64,000 nucleotides of DNA, from the NCBI RefSeq assembly GCF_038593855.1, contig NZ_CP151996.1:4278001-4342000 (forward strand), in the 5' to 3' direction. The notes below the pieces were generated by a model. It ran no database searches and was not told the DNA's origin. It worked only from the letters and a program-made list of their open reading frames with translations. The DNA is from Lysinibacillus sp. FSL M8-0337. GTDB taxonomy: Bacteria; Bacillota; Bacilli; Bacillales_A; Planococcaceae. The translations under genes and the position numbers were made by a program. This document shows, one piece after another, positions 7,331 to 51,631 of this stretch; within the stretch, counting starts at the first letter, position 1, and the number at the start of each line of letters is the position of its first letter.

Positions 7331-7410
7331 TTCGCTTTAGAATTTTAGTAGAAATATTGAACACCTTTTTATCTATTGCCATATGTATAGAGAGAAAAGG
7401 AGTGATGTTC

Positions 7411-7713
7411 ATGGTGACAATTGAACCTATTATGATTAAAGGTCATTTTTTCACTGCTGTGATTGTGCATTTACCAAAAACAACGTTATTAACTATTTCT
7501 AATGATACAGGCTACATCATGTGTGGTGCATTAGATGTCGGTCTTTTAAATAGTCGCTTATTAGATCGAAAAATTGTGGCAGGTCGAGCGGTTGGTGTGA
7601 AAACGATAGATGAGCTCTTAACCGCCCCTCTTGAATCTGTTACATTTGAAGCGGAGCAACTAGGTATATTTGCAGGAATGACTGGTGTAGAAGCATTGTT
7701 AAAAATGATTTAA
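7411..7713 (+). CDS. yunC: YunC family protein (DUF1805)
   Basis: A 100-aa protein matching YunC-type DUF1805 proteins in length and sequence (IMIKGHFFTAVIVHLPKTTLL, then YIMCGALDVGLLN and GRAVGVKTIDELL). The family has no established biochemical role; the B. subtilis gene lies in the purine-catabolism-associated yun region. The start is the second ATG of the pair ATGTTCATG, 8 nt after AAAGGAG. Earlier in-frame ATGs lie within the upstream repeat element and are unlikely. Confidence 0.8.
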   Translation: MVTIEPIMIKGHFFTAVIVHLPKTTLLTISNDTGYIMCGALDVGLLNSRLLDRKIVAGRAVGVKTIDELLTAPLESVTFEAEQLGIFAGMTGVEALLKMI

Positions 7714-39451: not shown

Positions 39452-40345
39452 TTAACTTAAGCATTTATCCTCAATGCTTCGTAAAATTTGAGCGCTCACA
39501 TTAAGGTCGCGAATATTCAATCTCATAGAGGTAGTATTTAAGTTCTTAAAGATCTTTAATACTGTTTTAAAAGGGTTATCAGCTAAACAAGCCTGATTAC
39601 TAATTAACTCAAAAAAATCATATGGCTTATCTATTAATTGCGTATGCTTGTCTACAAAAAATATTGAATCAATTTTACTGACATTATCATAATACTTCCA
39701 ACCAGGAACATCGCTAATATGAATTAACTCTGTCGTTAAACCTGTTTCCTCGATATGAAACGTTGGCATTTCACTAGGAATTTTTTCAACTATCTGTTTA
39801 AACTTATCTTCATAATACTCTTTTGTTGTATTTCTAAGGCCTATCGGTTTTTTAAAAGGCAGAATCTCTCCTGTTTCATTATCAATAACTAATAAATCAT
39901 CACTAATTAAACTGTGACCATATTCCAATAATTCCATTATTAATGTCGTCTTACCAGAGCGACTAGGGCCAAAAATGGCAATTGTTTTATTATTAACCCT
40001 AATTGCACAACCATGAAAAAATGAATACTTATTTCTAAAGAAGGGTACTGTAATAGGCGGGAGAAATGTAGCCTCTTCAACCCACTTTTCAAGTGAATTT
40101 TCATCTGGTCCGTGAAGAATGACTAGTTTATCATTTGATAACATATCACTGACCATAATGTTATAAGAGGAACGATTCTCAATTTTAATATAATAAGCAA
40201 TTGATGTTGTCGTATCATTATTTACGTACTCTCTATAAATATATGCTAATTGTTTCAATAAATACGAATCATTACTCTCTATATTTATTACATCACCGAA
40301 AAAGTTAAAATTAATCTTTAAACGCTCCAACATCAATCGACTCAC
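39452..40345 (-). CDS. HprK-like kinase of the RiPP locus
   Basis: A 297-aa protein related to HPr kinase/phosphorylase. The P-loop is GPSRSGKTT (126-134), preceded by FFHGCAIRV and followed by SLISDDLLVID (146-155), where the Asp pair would bind Mg. There is no separate N-terminal HprK domain like that of true HprK. Similar kinases in paeninodin-type lasso-peptide clusters phosphorylate the precursor's C-terminal Ser. Here the likely substrate is one of the adjacent precursor peptides. GTG start overlaps the PqqD-like stop codon (GTGA), indicating translational coupling. Confidence 0.82.
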   Translation of the reverse strand: MSRLMLERLKINFNFFGDVINIESNDSYLLKQLAYIYREYVNNDTTTSIAYYIKIENRSSYNIMVSDMLSNDKLVILHGPDENSLEKWVEEATFLPPITVPFFRNKYSFFHGCAIRVNNKTIAIFGPSRSGKTTLIMELLEYGHSLISDDLLVIDNETGEILPFKKPIGLRNTTKEYYEDKFKQIVEKIPSEMPTFHIEETGLTTELIHISDVPGWKYYDNVSKIDSIFFVDKHTQLIDKPYDFFELISNQACLADNPFKTVLKIFKNLNTTSMRLNIRDLNVSAQILRSIEDKCLS

Positions 40346-40590
40346 GCATCACTTTCTAACATATTTTCAAAGTCCTTAATTGTTACCTCAACTTGCTGTT
40401 CAAACTCACTTAAATCGCCTTCAGGAATAGAGTATTCTTTCATTAGCTTATTTTTTATGTCTGCAAGTGATGTTCCGTTAATATGCATTTTAATGATTGA
40501 TGATGCCGTTTCATTTAAAAATACTGGATCTTTCCCATCAATATCTACTACCGCTGTATTGCCAGTTTCAATATACTCATAGTTTTTCAT
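40342..40590 (-). CDS. PqqD-like RiPP recognition element (RRE) protein
   Basis: An 82-aa stand-alone PqqD-fold protein (TAVVDIDGKDPVFLNETASSIIKMHINGTSL, then IKNKLMKEYSIPEGDLSEFEQQVEV). Such proteins bind the leader peptide of a RiPP precursor and present it to modifying enzymes. The precursor leaders here have W-x2-P-K-x3-L, resembling the Y-x2-P-x-L motif read by PqqD-like B1 proteins in lasso systems. RBS GAGGGATT. It lies between the precursor array and the kinase. Confidence 0.85.
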   Translation of the reverse strand: MKNYEYIETGNTAVVDIDGKDPVFLNETASSIIKMHINGTSLADIKNKLMKEYSIPEGDLSEFEQQVEVTIKDFENMLESDA

Positions 40591-40616
40591 CTTAATCCCT
40601 CACTTTTTTGATATTA

Positions 40617-40696
40617 GGCTGTGTTAAACGTATGTATTTAGGTTGGTTGAATACTTATTCTCCAGACTAAAATCATCAATAACCTTTAACACAGCC
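40617..40696 (-). promoter_or_regulatory. 12-bp inverted repeat between precursors and PqqD-like gene
   Basis: GGCTGTGTTAAA and TTTAACACAGCC are perfectly complementary and enclose 56 nt. There is no T-tract. The structure could protect the 3' end of the precursor mRNA or reduce read-through into the enzyme genes, giving more peptide than enzyme. Confidence 0.65.
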
Positions 40697-40710
40697 ACTT
40701 CTTAATAACA

Positions 40711-40842
40711 TTAATTTCTTGTAAGCTCCCCATGGTGACCACTACTATTGCTTGCGTATAGAGAAGATTCAATTGACGACATCCTATTATCAAACTTTTT
40801 GACTGATAAAGCCTTTATTTTAGGACAAATCCATTTCTTCAT
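40711..40842 (-). CDS. RiPP precursor peptide, divergent copy (43 aa)
   Basis: Last gene of the precursor array. It begins MKKWICPKIKALSVKKFDN and ends LYASNSSGHHGELTRN. Compared with the other five it has Cys at position 6 in place of Ser, a two-residue insertion (NS) after LYAS and His for Arg in SGHxGEL. W4, P7, K8, A11, L12, KFDN, SIES, LYAS and the end SGHxGELTRN are conserved. The RBS GAGGTGA is close to those of the other copies. Conserved N- and C-termini with a variable middle fit a leader-core precursor. Confidence 0.88.
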   Translation of the reverse strand: MKKWICPKIKALSVKKFDNRMSSIESSLYASNSSGHHGELTRN

Positions 40843-40877
40843 CTGATCACCTCTTCAAATCAGCTAAATTATAAAAA

Positions 40878-41003
40878 TTAGTTACGTGTCAGTTCCCCAC
40901 GGTGTCCACTGCTTGCGTATAATGCTGATTCGATTGATAAAATTTTATTATCGAATTTTGTGATTTGTAATGCGTCCATTTTTGGGCTAATCCATTTTTT
41001 CAT
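40878..41003 (-). CDS. RiPP precursor peptide, 41 aa (copy 5 in transcription order)
   Basis: Encodes the common 41-aa peptide: MKKWISPKMDALQITKFDN, then KILSIESALYASSGHRGELTRN in two parts. The DNA differs from its sister copies only at silent sites (for example GAACTG for GAGCTT near the end). Preceded by AAGGAGGTGGAG. The core contains Ser26, Ser31, Ser32 and Thr39 as possible dehydration sites and no Cys. Starts exactly 158 nt after the previous copy. Confidence 0.9.
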   Translation of the reverse strand: MKKWISPKMDALQITKFDNKILSIESALYASSGHRGELTRN

Positions 41004-41035
41004 CTGTCTCCACCTCCTTGTATTTTTGCGAACTA

Positions 41036-41161
41036 TTAGTTACGTGTAAGCTCCCCACGGTGTCCACTGCTTGCGTATAATGCTGATTCGATTGATAAAA
41101 TTTTATTATCAAACTTTGTGATTTGTAATGCGTCCATTTTTGGGCTAATCCATTTTTTCAT
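41036..41161 (-). CDS. RiPP precursor peptide, 41 aa (copy 4)
   Basis: Same 41-aa product as copies 1, 2, 3 and 5, with W4-I-S-P-K-M near the start and SGHRGELTRN at the end. It uses AAGTTTGATAAT for KFDN where copies 2, 3 and 5 use AAATTCGATAAT. RBS AAGGAGGTGAAC, 8-9 nt before ATG. 158 nt from each neighbour. Confidence 0.9.
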   Translation of the reverse strand: MKKWISPKMDALQITKFDNKILSIESALYASSGHRGELTRN

Positions 41162-41193
41162 CTATGTTCACCTCCTTATCATTTTGCGAGCTA

Positions 41194-41319
41194 TTAGTTA
41201 CGTGTAAGCTCTCCACGGTGACCACTGCTTGCGTATAATGCTGATTCGATTGATAAAATTTTATTATCGAATTTCGTGATTTGTAATGCGTCCATTTTTG
41301 GGCTAATCCATTTTTTCAT
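41194..41319 (-). CDS. RiPP precursor peptide, 41 aa (copy 3)
   Basis: Same 41-aa product. Silent differences include GGTCACCGTGGAGAG near the core. RBS AAGGAGGTGAAG. The repeated intergenic spacer (about 32 nt) carries only the RBS and no promoter or terminator, so the copies are read as one polycistronic unit. Confidence 0.9.
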   Translation of the reverse strand: MKKWISPKMDALQITKFDNKILSIESALYASSGHRGELTRN

Positions 41320-41351
41320 CTGTCTTCACCTCCTTATATTTTTGCTGGCTA

Positions 41352-41477
41352 TTAGTTACGTGTAAGCTCTCCACGGTGTCCACTGCTTGCATATAGTGCT
41401 GATTCGATTGATAAAATTTTATTATCGAATTTCGTAATTTGTAGTGCGTCCATTTTTGGGCTAATCCATTTTTTCAT
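41352..41477 (-). CDS. RiPP precursor peptide, 41 aa (copy 2)
   Basis: Same 41-aa product. Silent differences include CTACAA for LQ and CTATATGCA for LYA. RBS AAGGAGGTGAAG. The concentration of changes at third or silent first positions, with no amino acid change in five copies, points to selection on the peptide. Confidence 0.9.
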   Translation of the reverse strand: MKKWISPKMDALQITKFDNKILSIESALYASSGHRGELTRN

Positions 41478-41509
41478 CTGCCTTCACCTCCTTATAATTT
41501 TGCGGGCTA

Positions 41510-41635
41510 TTAGTTACGTGTAAGCTCCCCACGATGTCCACTGCTTGCGTATAATGCTGATTCGATTGATAAAATTTTATTATCAAACTTTGTAATTTGT
41601 AATGCGTCCATTTTTGGGCTAATCCATTTTTTCAT
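41510..41635 (-). CDS. RiPP precursor peptide, 41 aa (copy 1, promoter-proximal)
   Basis: First of the six tandem precursor genes, 35 nt after the S41 protease gene. Same 41-aa product; uses GGACATCGTGGGGAG near the core. RBS AAGGAGGTGAAC. Leader features: W-I-S-P-K-M-D-A-L (possible PqqD-like recognition) and KFDNK, a loose match to the FNLD box read by class I LanB enzymes. No GG or other classical cleavage site is obvious. Confidence 0.9.
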   Translation of the reverse strand: MKKWISPKMDALQITKFDNKILSIESALYASSGHRGELTRN

Positions 41636-41670
41636 CTATGTTCACCTCCTTTAATTGTTCTCATTGATAA

Positions 41671-42414
41671 CTAAAGCATCATTATTTCAGGGGGCTTGTA
41701 GCTGCGGGTGTTAGCCATGCTTTTAATGGCATAGTAATAATTGAAATCAAAAGGAATATCGATATTAAAATCAGTTTCTATTTTCGATATAGGTATAAGA
41801 ACTTTTTTATTGGGCGCGGTAATTTGTTTATAGATATACTCTTTTCCATAAGTCTTACTACCAATAATTGTGGTATTTTTGTCATCCTTGAATTTATCCG
41901 CAAATAACTCTGCAGAGCTACATGTTGAATTTGAGACGAGTATATAGATATGAGCAATTGAATATTTCTTACATGTGTGAACAAACCAATTATAGTAATT
42001 AATCATCTTCTGCAATTCCCCGCCGAAATTAACTCTTAAATCGACCACTATATTTTTCTTAAAGATTTGTTCATCTAATTTTGGAATGACATCAAAACTA
42101 ATACATTGTAAAAACAAGTGATTATTACTAGTAAAATTTTCGTACACAATCTGGCTCCAATCGAAGTCTTCTAAAGTTAAAATCCACTGACTACCATTAT
42201 CAAACTCCACTATGTTTTCCCCAATTGCCCAATTACTACTAACATCTGGTGCTTTACCGTTAGCTTTTACAATCGTATTGGATTGGATCTCTTTCGGTAA
42301 TGGCGGATAAATATCTATTATGGATATTTTAGAATCACTTTTTTGGATTATAATTCCGAATTTTTCGAAAATTTTTTCCAAAGTTTCTTCCTCTATCGTG
42401 ATTACTTTAGACAT
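41671..42414 (-). CDS. S41-family serine protease (candidate leader peptidase)
   Basis: A 247-aa protein with the C-terminal-processing-peptidase catalytic core. The likely nucleophile is S166 in STCSSAELF and the general base K191 in GSKTYGK. The 25-residue spacing is that of CtpA-type enzymes. KKNIVVDLRVNFGG (about 119-132) is the preceding conserved strand. There is no signal peptide and no clear PDZ domain, so it probably acts in the cytoplasm. Its place directly before the precursor array makes it a candidate protease for precursor maturation. Start ATG (MSKVIT) 10 nt after AAGGAG; 8-nt overlap with the exporter gene. Confidence 0.8.
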   Translation of the reverse strand: MSKVITIEEETLEKIFEKFGIIIQKSDSKISIIDIYPPLPKEIQSNTIVKANGKAPDVSSNWAIGENIVEFDNGSQWILTLEDFDWSQIVYENFTSNNHLFLQCISFDVIPKLDEQIFKKNIVVDLRVNFGGELQKMINYYNWFVHTCKKYSIAHIYILVSNSTCSSAELFADKFKDDKNTTIIGSKTYGKEYIYKQITAPNKKVLIPISKIETDFNIDIPFDFNYYYAIKSMANTRSYKPPEIMML

Positions 42415-43999
42415 ATGCCACAGACTCCTTATCGACATAACTTGTAAAATCGTATTTTATATCAAATTTGTCGTAGATATCCTCGGGTGTGTTGTGCGAA
42501 ACAACAATGATTGTTTTATCTTTTATATTTAACAGCTCATCCCAAAATATTTGACTATTAAAACTATCAAGATTAGAAGTAGGTTCATCAAAAATTAAAG
42601 TCGATTTATCTGACATTAATCCTCTTAAAATAAGCAATCTTCTCTTTTCACCACTAGAGAGTTTTGTTACGTCTTCACTTAAAAGTTTCTCTTCTGACAA
42701 GAACTTCTTCATATAATTAAGTTCTTCTTCACTATACTCATCTCTCAATAAAATATTAAATATAGGTGAACCATCAAAAAGATTGTTGTCCGTCATGACG
42801 TACATAATATCTTTAAATGGATTACTATCAACCTTAAGACTATTGTTGTCATAACAAATTTCCCCAGTATGGTTGCTCTTTAATAATCCCAGTATGGATT
42901 CTAAAAATATAGATTTGCCTAAACCACTTTGCCCTGTAATAATATGTGTGTTGTTTTTTTGGAAAGTTACATCATTATAGTTGAAAACCGTATTATCAAA
43001 TTTAAAGGATAATTTTTTAGTAGTAATTGCGTTATTATAGCTAATCGCTGTTTCAAGATTATCTGTTTCTACACAGATAATGGAGTTAATATCTTCTCTT
43101 AGTTTTTTCGTGCTGTTTATATTATTTATACTCCTTGATAGCGATAAAATCGGCATACTTAATTGCTCTACTAAACCTAAAAGGGTAATCGTAACACCAG
43201 GAGTAATATGACCTTTAATAATTAATAAAACCGATATCGCTAGAATTAAGAAATGAGAAGAATATGATAGCAAGGAATACATCGTATTTAATGTAATTCT
43301 ATAATTCTCCGTTTTTAACCCCGCATCTCTTTCTTTATTAATTTCATTTCTAGACCTATTTCGAAAAAGGGCATCAGCATTTAAAATTCTTACGTACTTT
43401 AGATTATCTAATAGATTTTTAAAAAAGCTGAGGTTATCCCCTTTTTGGTTTAAAAAGCTTTTTTCAAGATTCGCCAGTTTATCTTTGAATAATTTAGTTA
43501 CCAATAAAGGCAAAAACATAAAAGCAATTACAACCAAGCCAATATAGATATTAATAATAAGTAAAGACGTTGTAACGAAAACGATCCTTAGCGTTAAGTA
43601 AATAGCATCAAAAGAACTTCTATAATATTGATACTCTAAACTATCCACAACATTCGTTAACGCATTTAAGTTACTTTCATTTTTCACCTTTATATTTGAA
43701 AAGTCTCTTGTCTTTAATACGTTGTTAATAATTGAATTTTTAAGTTTTGCAAAAGTGTTTCTAATTAAATGATTTTCGTACTTCCATTCTAAAAAGTAAA
43801 ATAGCACCTCTATTAAAATTAAAACCCCGAAAATCAAAATATACGTAGAGACTTTATCTAAATTTTGATCAAGTGCTCCTTGAAATAAATCTCCTTTAAT
43901 AAATTGGATAATTGTCCCCATTAATGTTGAAACAATTAAAATAGAAATCAAAAGGAAAGTATTTCTATTTTTTATTCCAAAAATAATAGATTTTTTCAA
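42407..43999 (-). CDS. ABC exporter of the RiPP locus (fused membrane and ATPase domains)
   Basis: A 530-aa half-transporter. Six hydrophobic helices lie in residues 10-290, then an ATPase with Walker A TGQSGLGKS, signature LSSGEKRRL, Walker B STLIFDEPTSNLDS and switch His in VVSHNTPED. No C39 peptidase domain is present, so leader removal must be done by another protein, for which the adjacent S41 protease is the candidate. It works presumably as a homodimer exporting the mature peptide. Start at the second TTG (LKKSII), 9 nt after AGGAGGG. Confidence 0.86.
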   Translation of the reverse strand: MKKSIIFGIKNRNTFLLISILIVSTLMGTIIQFIKGDLFQGALDQNLDKVSTYILIFGVLILIEVLFYFLEWKYENHLIRNTFAKLKNSIINNVLKTRDFSNIKVKNESNLNALTNVVDSLEYQYYRSSFDAIYLTLRIVFVTTSLLIINIYIGLVVIAFMFLPLLVTKLFKDKLANLEKSFLNQKGDNLSFFKNLLDNLKYVRILNADALFRNRSRNEINKERDAGLKTENYRITLNTMYSLLSYSSHFLILAISVLLIIKGHITPGVTITLLGLVEQLSMPILSLSRSINNINSTKKLREDINSIICVETDNLETAISYNNAITTKKLSFKFDNTVFNYNDVTFQKNNTHIITGQSGLGKSIFLESILGLLKSNHTGEICYDNNSLKVDSNPFKDIMYVMTDNNLFDGSPIFNILLRDEYSEEELNYMKKFLSEEKLLSEDVTKLSSGEKRRLLILRGLMSDKSTLIFDEPTSNLDSFNSQIFWDELLNIKDKTIIVVSHNTPEDIYDKFDIKYDFTSYVDKESVAYV

Positions 44000-44024
44000 C
44001 CCCAAGTCCCTCCTAGCCTACTCA

Positions 44025-44075
44025 TTAAAAAATAAATAGAGTAATTACGTAGAAAATATCAATCCATCCACCCAT
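44025..44075 (-). CDS. 16-aa hydrophobic peptide, candidate pheromone
   Basis: ATG lies 9 nt after a strong AGGGAGG and encodes MGGWIDIFYVITLFIF. It is a hydrophobic peptide with a single charged residue (Asp6). It sits 25 nt before the exporter start and is divergent from an Rgg/MutR-type regulator gene. Short hydrophobic peptides (SHPs) encoded next to rgg genes are known pheromones in streptococci, often with an Asp or Glu before a hydrophobic octapeptide. This ORF lacks their usual basic N-terminus. It may instead be a leader ORF for the exporter gene. Confidence 0.5.
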   Translation of the reverse strand: MGGWIDIFYVITLFIF

Positions 44076-44172
44076 TTTACAAAACCTCCCTTCAACTTAA
44101 ACTGTATTCTCAAATCGAATAAACGCTGTTGTTTATATGTCTGATAATAGAGAAATAAATTGATTGAATGGT

Positions 44173-44198
44173 AAAATGTATACAAATATATACATTTT
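44173..44198. promoter_or_regulatory. 10-bp inverted repeat, likely operator
   Basis: AAAATGTATA and TATACATTTT form a perfect inverted repeat around CAAATA, ending directly before the AGGAGG of the Rgg-type gene (ATG at 44212). Its position between divergent operons suggests a binding site for that regulator or autoregulation; it could also be an RNA hairpin masking the RBS. Confidence 0.65.
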
Positions 44199-44211
44199 AG
44201 GAGGTTTTACT

Positions 44212-45084
44212 ATGTTTGGTCCTACAATTGAAATGATAAGAGAAGGTAAAAAGATTAAAATAAAGGATCTTTGTGATGGCATAGTGACCCGAGCTGCTTA
44301 TCATCGTTTTGCCAGCGGTCAAACGGATACTAGTATCCATAATCTATCCTTATTTATGGATAGATTGCATATTTCTCCTAATGAGTTTTTCTTAATTCAT
44401 AGCAACTATGCGAGTGATAAAGTAGTTTGCTTTTTAAAAGAATTATCTAGAGCATATAGGGTGCAGGATATTCAAGAATTGCGCTCTTTAAGGAAGAAAC
44501 TAGAGGCAGATTTTACTGGTTTAAAACATGAACATATGACCGATCTTCTGAATTTCAGGATTTGTAGGTTGTTGGGGCAAGATATTGATGGCAAAAAAAG
44601 CAGTTTATTTAAGTATTTAATCAGCACTGAATTTTGGACTCATTATGAATTAGTACTATTTACAAATAGTATGTATGTTTTTTCATTAGAATTAATCGAT
44701 GCTATTCTTATACGTTGTATTCAAAGGTTTAATAAATACAGTCAGACTCGACCTTATGGAAATGAAGGCTTTCGACTTGTAGTCAATGCATTAATTTTAG
44801 CCTTTGAACAAAAAGATTCATTTTACACTACTAAATGGATTGATTTATTAAACACCATACAACTAAATGATAGTGATTTCTTTGAAAAAGCACTGTTCAA
44901 AATATTTAAAGGGTTTTATAACATCACAATACACAAAGATCAAAATTCCATTTCAGAAGTAATAAAAACAATTGAGTTTGTTGGGCATATAGAAGCCCGC
45001 GAACATGAAGTTATGTTTAATCGAATGCTGGATTTCATACTTGAGCATAGCGGATTAGAGAAAGTCCATTCTTCAAAAACATAA
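44212..45084 (+). CDS. Rgg/GadR/MutR-family transcriptional regulator
   Basis: A 290-aa regulator. Residues 1-62 form an XRE-type helix-turn-helix (IEMIREGKKIKIKDLCDGIVTRAAYHRF), and the rest is an all-helical TPR-like domain with the Rgg-typical FWTHYELVLFTNSMYVFSLELIDAI. Rgg/MutR proteins bind short intracellular peptides and control bacteriocin or lantibiotic loci. I chose ATG (MFGPTIEM) right after AGGAGG; a longer TTG-initiated frame from 44164 would read through the inverted repeat. It is divergent from the exporter-precursor operon and 46 nt ahead of lanB. Confidence 0.85.
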   Translation: MFGPTIEMIREGKKIKIKDLCDGIVTRAAYHRFASGQTDTSIHNLSLFMDRLHISPNEFFLIHSNYASDKVVCFLKELSRAYRVQDIQELRSLRKKLEADFTGLKHEHMTDLLNFRICRLLGQDIDGKKSSLFKYLISTEFWTHYELVLFTNSMYVFSLELIDAILIRCIQRFNKYSQTRPYGNEGFRLVVNALILAFEQKDSFYTTKWIDLLNTIQLNDSDFFEKALFKIFKGFYNITIHKDQNSISEVIKTIEFVGHIEAREHEVMFNRMLDFILEHSGLEKVHSSKT

Positions 45085-45130
45085 CTCAATTGATTACCTC
45101 TCTTAATTAAATAATTTTGAGGTGAATCAC

Positions 45131-48100
45131 ATGTATGAAATGATGCCCTATATCAATGTAAGAACAGCAAATCACTCAACTAATGAGGAAAATCAAGATC
45201 GTTGGTTTGATAAAAAACTTTTTACTAGTTCCCGTAGCTTATATCATCAATTGCAAAGGAACGAGAATTTTAACAAAGCCACACTAGCTAAAAGAAAATA
45301 TTTAAATAGATCTAGATATAGAGCAACACCCTTCGGCTTATTTTCATCTGTCTACTTCAATACTATAGATGAAGTAAATCATTCAACAAATCAAATGATT
45401 ATTCATCATGACTTTAAAGTATATACAAGTATTGATTCGGAATGGATTAGTAAATTTATTTCAACCTTAAAAAATGAAAATTTAGCAAGCTTACAGGTTA
45501 CGTGGAATTCGAATGTGGTCTACCAAAATTCGAATTTTTTATACAATAACTGGACATTAGATGATAAAAAGAAGTTTAATACAAATAAAATTCAATTAAA
45601 TACTCTATTAGAAGCGATTCAAGTCCATGCAAAAAAAGCTGTTACTATTGAAGAGTTAGCCAAAAAACTAGAAGAACAAAATGGTGTTCTTTTACCATTT
45701 AAAATTGTATTAAATGTAGTGAAACAATTGGTCCACGGTGGCTATTTGATTACGGATTTAGACAATTTAGCATTTATTCAAGACTTCGAACTTCTAATTC
45801 GCTATGTTGAAGAGAAAAATTATTCTTTCCCAAAAGATGCGATCAAGCAAATAAGAACTTTGATAAAAAATCAAAATAATTCTATAAGCAAGTTCAATAT
45901 AGATACTGTAAACAAGTTGGAAAAACTATTAGCTTCAATTCATAATTGTGAATATTACCTTCGCTTTGATAGTGAAACTAACGTTATTAATCTTGATTTA
46001 GATAAAGGTCTTATAGAAAAAACACTCTTACCTTTCGTTAATTTCCTATCGACTTATGCAATACGGGTACCTGTAAGTGATAGATATCAAGCTGATATCC
46101 TTTTTTTTAAAGAAAAGTACGGAAATTCAAAAGTAAAGTTTTTAGATTTTTACAAAAACTATCAATTGATTCGAGAGAAAAATTGTTCGCTAGAACGCAA
46201 AACGTCAGATTTAGAGAAAAAAATAAAAATGCAATTATTAGCACTAACATCTACGGCAGCAAACAGACATTTAAAAGAAATCGACATAGCAAATTTGCAT
46301 TTTGAAGACCTAAAAATAGAAAGCGAAATTTCTCCAGCAATACAAAGTTGTTTTTATTTAGAGAGTAATAATGGACAACTCAACTTTTCGCTAACCCCGT
46401 ATGCTGGAAATGCGGGACTTGGACGTTTAGAAGGACGATTTTCATATATAAATCCAGCATATTTTACAACAATGAAAAATATTGAAAGAAGAAAAATTGC
46501 AGAAGCTAATACAGAGGTCATTACCGTTAAATATATGCCTAAAAATCAACACTACTATAATATTATGAATGATTGCTATGAAGGCAATTTAAATCTTCAA
46601 TATGGAACTGCTGAAAATCATCAATCCGTTCCATTAGAGCACCTCTTTATTAGCATACAAGATAATAAATTAACACTTTCTGCATTATTAGATGACGGTA
46701 CTGAAAAAATTGTAAAGTTTGAACAATATAATGTATCTAATATTGAACATTTTTCCCCACATATTTTAAATGACTTACTATTTTGGAGTAGCAATTACTA
46801 TGCAAATATTATGTCGCTTCTATTCGATATTCAAAAAATACGAAAAGACTTTATTCATTTTCCAAAGGTTCTTTTTAAAGACATTGAATTAATCCCTCAA
46901 TCTTGGCTAATTAAAAATTATATGGGAGATATACGCTCACAAGATCAATTTTTCAGCAAGTTTACCGAAATGAAAACGATTTATGAAATACCGGATTCAC
47001 TTTTTGTTAGATGTAATGACCTAAGAATATTAATCGATACTAATCGTAAAGAGGATTTAGATATTTTATGGGATATTTATAAAACGGATAATTCTTTTAC
47101 TATTTACCTTGAAGAAAATTCATTGAACTTAGCTAACTTCATTACGCTTGACTCAGAAGGCAACCATTATATGTCTGAGTTTGTTTTTAACTTTGTAGCA
47201 CAAAAGATTAAGCCGAAGAAACTTGTCCAACTACCTTTGTTTCAAACAAAGGAAGAATTAAATTTAGAAAGAAAAGTTAACTGGCAACATTTTAATATTT
47301 ATTTACCGCACGAACTCCAAGACGACTTTTTAGGCACTTATTTAAATGAGCTTATTAAAGAGCTAAAATCCAACGGTGCAATTACTAAGTCTTTTTACAT
47401 TCGTTATTTTGATGATAGACATCATATAAGATTAAGAATTTCTCCTACTTCTCACTTTAATGGAATAGATGAATATCTAGCAAAAGGCATTATAGCTGGG
47501 GATATCATTGATTATAGTATAGGAAAGTATGACCCAGAATACGAAAGATATGGAGGATTGACTACCATGTCGGAGGCAGAGGATTTTTTCTGTGCTGATA
47601 GTTCTCTTATTCTTAGTTTATTAGCTTCCTGTTTAGGTAACGAAAAAATAGATAAAGTGGATCACGCTATCTATCTTGTGTTTAAACTACTATCTCTTCA
47701 TACCAAAGATCTACATCAACAGTTCCGTATTATGGATGATGGTTATTCAAATAAGGACTTTTCAAAAGATTTCCGTGAAAACAGACATAAATATTTGGCA
47801 TTTAGTGATATTGCTGCATCTTCAAATACTGATTTAACTGCACATCATTTTGCTTTCAACAAAGAACAACTGACCGACTGGGAGCTACAATTGTCTAACT
47901 ATTTTAAAAAATTAATAAATGAAAACCGTTTTGATTTTAATATTATTCGAAGTTTAATACATATGACATGTATCAGACTGTTTGGTATTAAATCAGAAGA
48001 GGAAGAATTAGTTGGAAATATGGTTTGGAGAGTTTTAAAACAACAAATTGCTATAAAGAAGAAAGCCACTAACGCTACCCTTATTTTAAACTCAAACTAA
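45131..48100 (+). CDS. LanB-type (class I) lantibiotic dehydratase, full length
   Basis: A 989-aa protein covering both LanB parts. The glutamylation domain begins with RSRYRATPFGLFSSVYF (about residue 60). The elimination domain (SpaB_C, from about residue 710) has FYIRYFDDRHHIRLRI (about 755) and RSLIHMTCIRLFG (about 943), keeping the Arg and His residues that NisB uses for glutamate elimination. LanB enzymes glutamylate Ser/Thr with Glu-tRNA and then form dehydroalanine or dehydrobutyrine. There is no LanC in the locus and no Cys in the core, so the product would stay dehydrated or be modified otherwise. RBS GAGGTG; ATG at 45131 preferred over GTG at 45122. Confidence 0.9.
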   Translation: MYEMMPYINVRTANHSTNEENQDRWFDKKLFTSSRSLYHQLQRNENFNKATLAKRKYLNRSRYRATPFGLFSSVYFNTIDEVNHSTNQMIIHHDFKVYTSIDSEWISKFISTLKNENLASLQVTWNSNVVYQNSNFLYNNWTLDDKKKFNTNKIQLNTLLEAIQVHAKKAVTIEELAKKLEEQNGVLLPFKIVLNVVKQLVHGGYLITDLDNLAFIQDFELLIRYVEEKNYSFPKDAIKQIRTLIKNQNNSISKFNIDTVNKLEKLLASIHNCEYYLRFDSETNVINLDLDKGLIEKTLLPFVNFLSTYAIRVPVSDRYQADILFFKEKYGNSKVKFLDFYKNYQLIREKNCSLERKTSDLEKKIKMQLLALTSTAANRHLKEIDIANLHFEDLKIESEISPAIQSCFYLESNNGQLNFSLTPYAGNAGLGRLEGRFSYINPAYFTTMKNIERRKIAEANTEVITVKYMPKNQHYYNIMNDCYEGNLNLQYGTAENHQSVPLEHLFISIQDNKLTLSALLDDGTEKIVKFEQYNVSNIEHFSPHILNDLLFWSSNYYANIMSLLFDIQKIRKDFIHFPKVLFKDIELIPQSWLIKNYMGDIRSQDQFFSKFTEMKTIYEIPDSLFVRCNDLRILIDTNRKEDLDILWDIYKTDNSFTIYLEENSLNLANFITLDSEGNHYMSEFVFNFVAQKIKPKKLVQLPLFQTKEELNLERKVNWQHFNIYLPHELQDDFLGTYLNELIKELKSNGAITKSFYIRYFDDRHHIRLRISPTSHFNGIDEYLAKGIIAGDIIDYSIGKYDPEYERYGGLTTMSEAEDFFCADSSLILSLLASCLGNEKIDKVDHAIYLVFKLLSLHTKDLHQQFRIMDDGYSNKDFSKDFRENRHKYLAFSDIAASSNTDLTAHHFAFNKEQLTDWELQLSNYFKKLINENRFDFNIIRSLIHMTCIRLFGIKSEEEELVGNMVWRVLKQQIAIKKKATNATLILNSN

Positions 48101-48225
48101 AACAAGCATCATTCTACAATTTATATTTCCATGGAAATAATTTTCTCTTTTGTTTGCATGATATAAACGTTTTATTCAAAGAAGAGGAACATGCCATCTT
48201 CATTTTTGAGACTGGGGGGATAAAA

Positions 48226-49701
48226 ATGGAAGAGCTTGCTTTAAAATTAAACAATGTTCAAATTAGTTTTGGGGACAAGGAAATTTTTGATACTAAGGAA
48301 TTAACCGTTTATCAAAATGATCGCATTGGTATTGTAGGGAAAAATGGTCAAGGCAAAACGACTTTATTGAATATAATTGCAGGTACCATTACACCTGATA
48401 ATGGAAAGATTGAACGATTTGTCGATTTCAATTATTTTCAACAAATCGGTGAGCTAAAGGAAGAAACGAATGCTGACTATCTAGATTCCCAATTACTTAG
48501 CCGCTTGAACGTTCCTACTAACAGCGTTGAAACACTTAGTGGTGGAGAACAATCCAAATTTCGTTTAGTTCAGTTACTATCTCAATATAAAATGGGTCTG
48601 CTGTTAGACGAACCGACAACGCACGTAGATAAAAATGGGATCGACATAATGATCGAAGAATTAAATTATTACTACGGTACTTTAATATTTGTCAGCCATG
48701 ATCGCTATTTTATTAATGCAATCGCCACTAAAATATGGGAAATAGATAATGGGAAAATCAAAGAATTTAACGGCAATTACGATCAATATCTGGAACAGAA
48801 ACAACAAGAGAAGTTGGAGTTACAAAGAAAATATCAAAAGGTCACAAAAGAAAAAGAACGATTACAAGAAGCCGTAGAAGTGAAAAAGAGTCAGGCAAAG
48901 AAAATTTCTATTGTTAGCGAAAAAAACAAACAACGAAATATTAAACCGAATCGCTTAGCTTCTACCAAACAAAAAGACACGGTTCAAAAGAGTATGTTGA
49001 AAACCGTGAAATCAATAGAGAAAAGAATGGATATGTTGGAGGAGGTTCATATTGAAAAAGAACCTAAACCAATTTCTTTTCCAATAGTGAAAGAACTTGA
49101 AATAAATAATCGTTTTCCGATAATGGGACATAATATCACCGTTACTGCTGGAGACAATATCCTTCTTGCAGAACAGGATTTCCAATTCCCACTTGGCAAG
49201 AAGATAGCTATAGTAGGAGACAATGGCGTAGGTAAATCAACTTTCTTACACTATATAATGAATAATCAAGATGGTATCACGCTTTCCTCAAAAATTGTAT
49301 TTTGCACTTACAAGCAAATGGATTATAAAATGAGTGGGGACATAAGTATATTAGAGTATCTTATGAAGATGAGTGAGTATAAAGAAAGTTTTATTCGGGC
49401 GATTCTCAGTAACCTTGGCTTTGAAGAAGCCACTATTAGAAAACCTTTACATGCGTTAAGTGGTGGAGAAGTAACTCGAATTTCTTTGGCAGCCCTTTTT
49501 GCCAAACCTTCTAATGTCCTTATTTTAGATGAACCAACAAATTTTATAGACTTAGCTACTATTGAAGCATTGGAAAAATTTTTACTAGGCTATAAAGGAA
49601 CAGTGCTCTTTACTACTCATGATCAGCTTATTGTGGAAAGAGTAGCTGACCAAATTTGGGAAATTAAAGATAAAACGTTACAGCTTATCAAGGAAAAATA
49701 A
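48226..49701 (+). CDS. ABC-F family ATPase (ribosome-protection type)
   Basis: A 491-aa protein with two ABC ATPase domains and no membrane helices. Domain 1 has GKNGQGKTT, ETLSGGEQSKF and LLLDEPTTHVD. Domain 2 has GDNGVGKST, HALSGGEVTRI and LILDEPTNFID. Between them lies a charged coiled-coil linker (about 200-285) that in antibiotic-resistance ABC-Fs reaches the ribosomal exit-site region. Sequence style and length recall Vga/Lsa/Msr-type proteins. It follows lanB by 125 nt on the same strand, so it may give self-resistance. I chose ATG (MEELAL) after GGGGGGATAAAA; a longer TTG frame from 48154 lacks an RBS. Confidence 0.87.
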   Translation: MEELALKLNNVQISFGDKEIFDTKELTVYQNDRIGIVGKNGQGKTTLLNIIAGTITPDNGKIERFVDFNYFQQIGELKEETNADYLDSQLLSRLNVPTNSVETLSGGEQSKFRLVQLLSQYKMGLLLDEPTTHVDKNGIDIMIEELNYYYGTLIFVSHDRYFINAIATKIWEIDNGKIKEFNGNYDQYLEQKQQEKLELQRKYQKVTKEKERLQEAVEVKKSQAKKISIVSEKNKQRNIKPNRLASTKQKDTVQKSMLKTVKSIEKRMDMLEEVHIEKEPKPISFPIVKELEINNRFPIMGHNITVTAGDNILLAEQDFQFPLGKKIAIVGDNGVGKSTFLHYIMNNQDGITLSSKIVFCTYKQMDYKMSGDISILEYLMKMSEYKESFIRAILSNLGFEEATIRKPLHALSGGEVTRISLAALFAKPSNVLILDEPTNFIDLATIEALEKFLLGYKGTVLFTTHDQLIVERVADQIWEIKDKTLQLIKEK

Positions 49702-50330: not shown

Positions 50331-51605
50331 TCATACATTGAAAATAAAAGTTTTAGTAGCGGTCTCCCCTGTCTGCATATTTTTTAGCATATAGTGATTT
50401 TGCGTTACTTCCTCTAGCCCCAACACAATAACAAAAGGAATGTTTTCACGATTTGCTTTATCCATCGCTTTTCTTAATTTTTTACCACTAAGCTCTACTT
50501 CAACGCGATAGTCTTTCCGCAATGCTTTTGCTAATACAAGAGACTCTACTGTTGTATTAATAGGAATGATATAAATATCAATTAATGTCTCCTGCTTTTT
50601 TTGTTCATCTAACATCATAGCTGTAAAAATAACATCTAACCCGAATGAAATACCGACCGTAGCGAACTTTTCTGTTCCCCCTAATAGCCCGCCAATCGCA
50701 TTATCATAACGACCCCCGCTTCCTATACTGGATGTTATGCGACCATCCCGTACGAACATTTCATAAATTGTACCCGTATAAATTTCTAGCCCACGCGCAA
50801 GCAAAGGATTAAATAGACAATTTTCTGTAATGCCAAGCTTATTTAAATAGTGTTCTAATTCTTCCATTTCGGCTACACCTTCTTGAATCAGAGGCTCATC
50901 ATATTGGCCGAAATAAGCAAGTGTATTTTTTCTATCGTCTTGTAAAAAATATGCGATTCGCTTTACAACAGCAAGTTGCAAACCTACCTCTGTTAACTCT
51001 GCTAAAACTGCATCATGACCTACTTTTTCAATTTTATCGAGTATTAAAATTACCCGACTTTGCACATCAGCATCTACACCAAAAACACCAAGTAAGCCAA
51101 CTAATAGCTTACGATTGTTATATTGAATGACAACATCTTGCTCTAACTTTTCAAAAGCATCTAATGCCATCATCATCAATTCGGCCTCAGCTGCTTGTGA
51201 ATCAACCCCAACAATATCTACATCACATTGTGTAAACTCGCGGAATCTCCCCGCTTTAATCGGGCCATCTCGAAACACTTTGCCAATTTCATAACGTTTA
51301 AATGGCATCGGTAATGTAGGGTTCATTGCAATGACCTTTGCGAATGGAATCGTTAAATCATAACGTAATGCTAGTTCACGTTCTCCTCGATCCGATAGCA
51401 CATACATCTCTTGTAGAATTTCAGCACCTCCTGCGTATTTTGATGCCATTAAGCTTGTATAGTTTAAAATCGGTGTTTCAAGTGGTTTACACCCATATGT
51501 GATAAAAGTATCTTCTAACGTACGCCGAATTTTACGACGAATACGTTCTTGCTCTGGTAAATAGTCTTGGGTTCCTCTAACATTTTGATAATCCATTTTC
51601 TTCAT
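50331..51605 (-). CDS. hisS: Histidyl-tRNA synthetase
   Basis: A 424-aa class II aminoacyl-tRNA synthetase. Motif 1 region FITYGCKPLETPIL, motif 2 FKRYEIGKVFRDGPIKAGRFREFTQCDVDIVG, the histidine loop RGLEIYTGTIYEMF and motif 3 SIGSGGRYDNAIGGLLG are present, followed by a complete C-terminal anticodon-binding domain. This separates it from the regulatory paralogue HisZ. The second of two close ATGs is chosen, 8 nt from AAAGGAG. Expression is controlled by a His-rich leader peptide and attenuator just upstream, not by a T-box. It may be a second HisRS of the genome. Confidence 0.9.
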   Translation of the reverse strand: MKKMDYQNVRGTQDYLPEQERIRRKIRRTLEDTFITYGCKPLETPILNYTSLMASKYAGGAEILQEMYVLSDRGERELALRYDLTIPFAKVIAMNPTLPMPFKRYEIGKVFRDGPIKAGRFREFTQCDVDIVGVDSQAAEAELMMMALDAFEKLEQDVVIQYNNRKLLVGLLGVFGVDADVQSRVILILDKIEKVGHDAVLAELTEVGLQLAVVKRIAYFLQDDRKNTLAYFGQYDEPLIQEGVAEMEELEHYLNKLGITENCLFNPLLARGLEIYTGTIYEMFVRDGRITSSIGSGGRYDNAIGGLLGGTEKFATVGISFGLDVIFTAMMLDEQKKQETLIDIYIIPINTTVESLVLAKALRKDYRVEVELSGKKLRKAMDKANRENIPFVIVLGLEEVTQNHYMLKNMQTGETATKTFIFNV

Positions 51606-51631
51606 CTTCATTGCTCCTTTTTTTAGAAAAT

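Follow-up and report, generated by a model that had tools for sequence, protein, structure and literature searches.

Described ribosomally synthesized and post-translationally modified peptides (RiPPs) offer several partial parallels to the gene island analysed here, which lies at positions 39452-49701 of a window of 64,000 nucleotides (G000:C1:4278001-4342000) in the 4.56-Mb, single-contig genome of Lysinibacillus sp. FSL M8-0337 (G000). Class I lanthipeptides of the nisin type share with the island a full-length LanB dehydratase bearing the NisB catalytic residues, an ATP-binding cassette (ABC) exporter, and small precursors in which a leader precedes a C-terminal part with Ser and Thr. Unlike these systems, the island lacks LanC and core Cys residues and contains a stand-alone PqqD-like protein, a kinase, and an S41 peptidase. 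Phosphorylated lasso peptides of the paeninodin/ThcoK type resemble it in the HprK-like kinase with a His-Lys-Asp-Asp set, the MKK-W/Y-x-x-P leader, the putative PqqD-type protein, and the ABC exporter. The island locus, however, has LanB and S41 rather than a lasso cyclase and B2 protease, and its precursors lack a C-terminal Ser and, where scanned, are not matched by the paeninodin model.

Two further groups show more limited likeness. In the streptococcal Rgg/SHP-regulated radical SAM RiPPs (RaS-RiPPs), as here, an Rgg regulator stands beside a divergent open reading frame (ORF) for a short peptide and a RiPP operon, and their exporter GggC provides the second-best model for the island exporter; in contrast, no radical SAM domain was found in the island proteins scanned, and the precursor and enzymes are different. 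In thiopeptides and goadsporin-like RiPPs, LanB-derived dehydroalanine (Dha) and dehydrobutyrine (Dhb) serve mainly for purposes other than lanthionine, a likeness to the island, whose LanB is, however, not split, whose precursors lack core Cys, and whose scanned proteins contain no YcaO domain. Our best reading from these comparisons is that the island falls outside class I lanthipeptides, because it has no LanC and no core Cys, and outside lasso peptides, because the locus has no cyclase or B2 and the precursors no terminal Ser; it would work by joining LanB dehydration to lasso-style recognition and phosphorylation. We assign a probability of roughly 0.57 to the island being one rare hybrid RiPP cluster whose product is dehydrated, has no lanthionine, may be phosphorylated, and is perhaps directed at the ribosome.

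Gene organization and conservation

The minus strand of the island encodes the ABC exporter, the S41 peptidase, six precursors, the PqqD-like protein, and the HprK-like kinase, while the plus strand encodes the Rgg regulator, the 992-residue LanB, and an ABC-F protein. The exporter and S41 genes overlap, as do those of the PqqD-like protein and the kinase. Every gene named in an earlier sequence-only reading of the window was present at the position given there. Curated cut-offs were exceeded by the S41 peptidase, both LanB domains, the C-terminal domain of Rgg, and the ABC-F protein in a ribosomal-protection model; they were not reached by the PqqD-like protein and the kinase. A second species of the genus (G020) carries the whole locus, including six precursor copies, in the same order; the products of its larger genes are 95-99% identical. 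The ratio of non-synonymous to synonymous substitution rates (dN/dS) between the two genomes is 0.023 for the six precursor pairs (35 synonymous and 4 non-synonymous changes) and 0.06-0.16 for the other island genes. Because it is conserved in G020 with purifying selection, the locus is not a chance assembly.

The precursor peptides

Copies 1 to 5 (41510-41635, 41352-41477, 41194-41319, 41036-41161, and 40878-41003, minus strand) encode an identical peptide of 41 residues in a 158-bp tandem array. The successive spacings are 158, 158, 158, 158, and 161 bp, the last leading to copy 6 (40711-40842, minus strand), which encodes a divergent peptide of 43 residues. Copies 1 to 5 are each preceded by a site like AAGGAGGTG and copy 6 by GAGGTG, as read directly from the DNA. 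Among themselves the five window copies differ by 58 synonymous and 0 non-synonymous changes (summed over ten pairs), and between the two genomes the precursors are under strong purifying selection. Divergence of this synonymous-only kind means that the copies are held to one peptide, leader included.

The leader contains the KFDN motif, which may be akin to the FNLD box known from class I leaders. The strings FNLD and FDLD have 0 occurrences in PMC9993889. A W/Y-x-x-P motif is found in all 12 precursors of the window and G020 (six each), and the leader, MKKW-x-x-P-K, fits the W/Y/LxxP/L/I recognition sequence that a passage of PMC12710340 describes as common to several groups of RiPP recognition elements (RREs). 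None of the 12 has Cys in its C-terminal part; the sequence-only reading, which had called the precursors Cys-free, was thus right for this part but not for the leader of copy 6, which has one Cys. Similarly, the tail SGHxGELTRN that it proposed describes the window copies and widens to [SG]GHxGELTRN once copies 4 and 5 of G020 are counted.

A profile of 18 lasso precursors, chosen from lasso-kinase loci with near duplicates left out, ranked the six precursor genes first among 1219 ORFs of the window (E 0.24-0.41; seventh 0.54). The paeninodin model NF033524 did not match the two window precursors scanned, and did match the precursors of lasso loci L067 and L069. The L069 precursor (7388-7519, also recorded as L236), a member of the paeninodin family, ends in PRGELTFS, and RGELT near the C-terminus also occurs in the RGELTRN of the window precursors, which may be coincidence or a tail signal common to both. 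Lasso clusters L068, L249, and L250 each combine a kinase with several precursors in tandem, a parallel to the six-copy array.

LanB and the missing cyclase

The gene at 45122-48100 (plus strand) encodes a full-length LanB with glutamylation and elimination domains. At NisB positions R83, R87, T89, D121, D299, R464, R784, R786, E823, R826, and H961 the island protein has the identical residue (11 of 11); the comparison showed 16 positions in all, and the three with a different residue (298, 468, and 469) adjoin the listed ones. R14 is invariant across eight aligned LanBs. Apart from R786, R826, and H961, the choice and roles of the compared positions are our assumption. For these three, Ala mutants (R786A, R826A, H961A) glutamylate without elimination, according to a section of PMC4979651. 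The island LanB is predicted from this alignment to be active. It might instead glutamylate, or use aminoacyl-tRNA, without net dehydration, so that the peptide would carry an adduct as with the small LanB-type ligases; peptide aminoacyl-tRNA ligases (PEARLs) are a known case of a LanB fold used in this way, and no cyclase follows in the island. The elimination domain is nevertheless present with R772, R809, and H947 kept, while the small LanBs treated in the same section of PMC4979651 lack this domain, and we regard an adduct-forming LanB as quite improbable.

The distribution of LanC was followed in a scan of 84,980 species with one pattern from the LanB alignment, of which the best 80 of 366 relatives were kept; LanBs without the pattern and loci cut at contig ends escape this count. 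The LanB relatives are of class I, and LanC is present in 75 of the 80 loci, as would fit a class I lanthipeptide cluster with its cyclase elsewhere in the genome; the two LanC queries used for these loci came from two of their number and were later confirmed as LANC_like. A LanC search of G000, however, gave no match at E<=0.001 (its control matched in 1 of 14 genomes), LanC was not found in the orthologous locus L016, and the C-terminal parts of the 12 precursors have no Cys. We give a distant cyclase next to no weight, and the earlier exclusion of an ordinary lanthipeptide stands. The loci without LanC are L161, L183, L184, L204, and L214, all cut except L183. This full-length locus of Paenibacillus tyrfis has LanB and, by two queries, no LanC within 10 kb, and is a possible LanC-free cluster.

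Kinase, PqqD-like protein, protease, and exporter

The HprK-like kinase gene (39452-40345, minus strand) overlaps the stop codon of the PqqD-like gene. Its product scored 27.8 bits in Pfam against a cut-off of 33.3, and in NCBIfam HprK_rel_A 39 bits against 200 (E 4.9e-10). Since the kinases of two lasso clusters likewise fall under the Pfam HprK cut-off (29.1 and 30.0 bits), the low score is no mark against the island kinase. An hhalign comparison with three lasso kinases gave 97% probability (E 1.9e-11), and by sequence the kinase is nearest to lasso-peptide kinases. These conserve a His-Lys-Asp-Asp motif, as part of PMC9266682 sets out, to which H111, K132 (the Walker A Lys), D149, and D150 of the island kinase correspond in our own mapping. 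A search of 151 genomes with the kinase gave nine weak matches beyond G000 and G020; of the eight neighbourhoods fetched (G045 was left out), three are lasso clusters. A separate search for lasso kinases gave matches in 38 of 398 class genomes. From these, 30 loci were fetched, each with a lasso-like precursor ending in Ser; only ORFs with a [WYF]xxP leader pattern were considered, and stray ORFs in L244, L246, L247, and L253 were set aside by eye. Family models confirmed the L067 cluster as lasso.

The stand-alone PqqD-like protein (40342-40590, minus strand) is a putative RRE. Its best match in the PDB is the lasso RRE TfuB1 (E 0.04), and the PqqD assignment, based on a weak Pfam match, is a weak one. 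The small S41 peptidase (41671-42414, minus strand; its start overlaps the exporter stop) aligns with solved C-terminal proteases over the catalytic region, and its kept Ser/Lys pair, S174 and K199 in a 255-residue frame, presumably corresponds to the S41 catalytic Ser and Lys with their usual 25-residue spacing. No PDZ domain was matched in Pfam and no signal peptide was seen by eye. The ABC exporter (42407-44005, minus strand) has membrane and ATPase domains and no peptidase domain in Pfam; its second-best NCBIfam model, the streptosactin exporter GggC, scored 107 bits against a cut-off of 750.

These likenesses raise the alternative of a lasso-peptide cluster, intact or decayed. The sequence-only reading had noted a lasso link while pointing to the missing cyclase, and both the kinase and the leader prove closer to lasso systems than it supposed. 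A leader ending at T15-K16 would place E25 at core position 9, which we take to be the usual place of the lasso ring acid, and the RGELTFS end of the L069 precursor compares with RGELTRN here. The link loosens at the precursors, which lack the C-terminal Ser and, where scanned, match no lasso-precursor family model. There is no cyclase at the locus: L016 contains no relative of cyclase, B1, or B2 at E<=0.01, and the nine window proteins scanned have no Asn_synthase or transglutaminase domain, a genome-wide cyclase search not having been made. Decay, moreover, is at odds with genes under selection. A lasso cluster of either kind is therefore very improbable.

Relatives elsewhere

When 398 phylum genomes were searched with a precursor profile, the only matches were the six copies of G000 and a weak one in G728 (E 0.0037, restricted to profile positions 20-41), which overlaps a long glycine-cleavage-like ORF and was rejected as chance. 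Scans of 84,980 species and of viral contigs gave no precursor relative. Viral contigs also yielded no relative of the kinase, and plasmids none of the S41 peptidase; 55 plasmid records contain LanB, all below 60% identity. Among 261 family genomes, the S41 search detected the locus in 2 and gave two further weak matches in longer ORFs. LanB was matched in 22 of 398 class genomes including G000 (G020 is not among these matches), the best foreign match reaching 124 bits and 25% identity. LanB regions were fetched from 13 of the 21 foreign genomes matched, one from each, and contained no S41, HprK, or PqqD, and none of these was found in the fetched flanks of the 80 LanB loci, with L016 as positive control. 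Together with the literature, in which the combination is not described within the portion of open-licence PubMed Central covered, this strengthens the earlier view of one RiPP pathway with a gene combination not met in other systems. The term family, also used there, covers two close relatives here.

The island site in related genomes

The best matches of the two flanking genes are adjacent in 5 of 32 genus genomes (G000, G020, G017, G023, and G029). In G023 and G029 the stretch between them is about 590 bp long, and no island protein was matched at this site. In G017, where contig C71 spans the site (locus L132), Rgg is 94% and ABC-F 97% identical to the window proteins, whereas neither the precursor operon nor LanB is present, apart from a 52-nt piece of the 3' end of the LanB gene that includes the stop codon. 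This remnant lies between Rgg and ABC-F and matches window positions 48049-48100 (plus strand), implying that LanB was once present, in an ancestor or donor. About 59 bp at the left junction of the G017 site gave no match that places them. If LanB and the operon act on a single product and ABC-F protects against it, the production genes would be expected to be absent from either side of an Rgg that persists together with ABC-F, as at this site. The proposal of one pathway, already made in the sequence-only reading, is thereby strengthened, and the pattern supports ABC-F as immunity, in one genome and with recombination or other causes possible.

Several observations weigh against a single hybrid pathway. 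Between G017 and G020 the synonymous divergence (dS) of ABC-F is 0.034 and that of Rgg 0.173; that the G017 ABC-F is so much nearer to G020 hints at recombination involving ABC-F and the LanB tail, which weakens simple co-loss. The full gene set was found in two genomes only. The likeness of the kinase to lasso kinases spans about 81 columns in hhalign, and a lasso kinase found no match in G000 at E<=1e-25. The PqqD-like protein reached 21.9 bits (E 2.3e-4) against the Pfam PqqD cut-off of 23.4, had no NCBIfam match, and gave 2.8% probability (E 0.016) in hhalign against three lasso B1 proteins; a true lasso B1 stands far above it with 67 bits in Pfam PqqD and 118.5 in its own model. No family model matched the two window precursors scanned. 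All 12 precursors end in Asn, in contrast to the Ser of lasso-like precursors at 30 of 30 fetched lasso-kinase loci, so the known target site of the kinase, a C-terminal Ser, is missing; and S32 is replaced by Gly in two G020 copies.

LanB, finally, is on the opposite strand from the precursors in its own unit. This layout could mean two separate units, with an operon of precursors, PqqD-like protein, kinase, S41, and exporter working without LanB, and Rgg, LanB, and ABC-F left over from another cluster. Their pairing in 0 of 80 other loci fits such a division, and the G017 mosaic leaves room for separate events. However, no other precursor-like ORF that could serve LanB was seen by eye in the ORF list for 36-54 kb, the biosynthetic genes of both units are missing in G017 while Rgg and ABC-F are kept, and all the genes are missing together at the G023 and G029 site. 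We consider separate units unlikely and favour the single hybrid cluster.

Regulator, candidate pheromone, and ABC-F protein

The Rgg-type regulator (44212-45084, plus strand; family model match) probably starts at 44212. Between it and the exporter, divergent to rgg, an ORF of 16 residues (MGGWIDIFYVITLFIF; 44025-44075, minus strand) follows a strong ribosome site, GGGAGG. The peptide contains DIFYVITLFIF and is the same in G020. When the intergenic sequence was shuffled 5000 times, such an ORF appeared on either strand in 45 cases, a chance of about 0.9%. In groups I and II of the short hydrophobic peptides (SHPs), according to part of PMC13361665, the peptide gene runs divergently from rgg and the SHP contains Asp or Glu; by its sequence the ORF is a candidate SHP/LCP-like pheromone for an Rgg system outside streptococci.

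The Msr-like ABC-F protein of ribosomal-protection type (48226-49701, plus strand, with 48226 the probable start) scored 492.7 bits in NF000355 against a cut-off of 380, and 637.1 in the Msr subfamily model, whose cut-off of 680 it does not reach. Its best solved relative is 5zlu, named a macrolide efflux protein. ABC-F has 0 occurrences in PMC7136475. While the protein is a candidate for immunity, it could be a general antibiotic-resistance gene unrelated to the peptide, a rival to this step only. ABC-F relatives are widespread, with matches at E<=1e-90 in 70 of the 261 genomes of the family, and the G017 copy may have been exchanged by recombination. Conversely, the island ABC-F forms its own lineage, with 97-98% identity among three carriers and at most 46% in the 67 other genomes matched; it is absent at the G023 and G029 site and stays with Rgg in G017 without the production genes. 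General resistance is possible but on balance somewhat unlikely, and we retain the candidate immunity role.

Proposed pathway

In the single hybrid cluster that we favour, Rgg, probably with a short peptide signal, would turn on the divergent operon. The stand-alone PqqD-like RRE would bind the MKKW-x-x-P-K leader and deliver the precursor to the enzymes. LanB, with glutamyl-tRNA, would glutamylate and then eliminate Ser and Thr of the C-terminal part (S23, S26, S31, T39, and neighbours), and the resulting Dha and Dhb would stay, there being no LanC to make thioethers. The HprK-like kinase may phosphorylate Ser or Thr of this precursor as well. Leader removal would fall to the S41 protease, which is probably a cytoplasmic enzyme, the ABC exporter would secrete the peptide, and ABC-F may protect the producer's ribosomes. 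For the fragment SSGHRGELTRN the computed protonated mass (MH+) is 1213.603, with steps of -18.011 at 1195.593, 1177.582, and 1159.572, and +79.966 at 1293.570; the computed mass of the fragment YASSGHRGELTRN is 1447.704.

If true, this pathway would join two normally separate RiPP toolkits, glutamyl-tRNA-dependent dehydration and HprK-type phosphorylation, on a short duplicated precursor, and would offer a testable case of LanB chemistry ending in dehydroamino acids rather than thioethers. G017, with no production genes but a presumed immunity gene, would serve as a natural comparison and would point to a ribosomal target. A more far-reaching claim, which we hold to be doubtful, is that of a new RiPP class, in which LanB dehydration and HprK phosphorylation of a Cys-free precursor with a stand-alone RRE would yield a linear or non-thioether phosphopeptide that hits the ribosome, and ABC-F would be dedicated immunity that persists in non-producing 'cheaters' like G017.

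Base composition and a neighbouring gene

The G+C content of the island is 31.2%, compared with 37.7% and 36.4% in the flanks. An accessory histidyl-tRNA synthetase (HisRS; 50331-51611, minus strand; Pfam tRNA-synt_His) adjoins the island. It has matches in 15 of 32 genus genomes at E<=1e-60 and aligned at the empty island site in G023, not in G029. The hisS gene has an 80% DNA match on a Lysinibacillus fusiformis plasmid.

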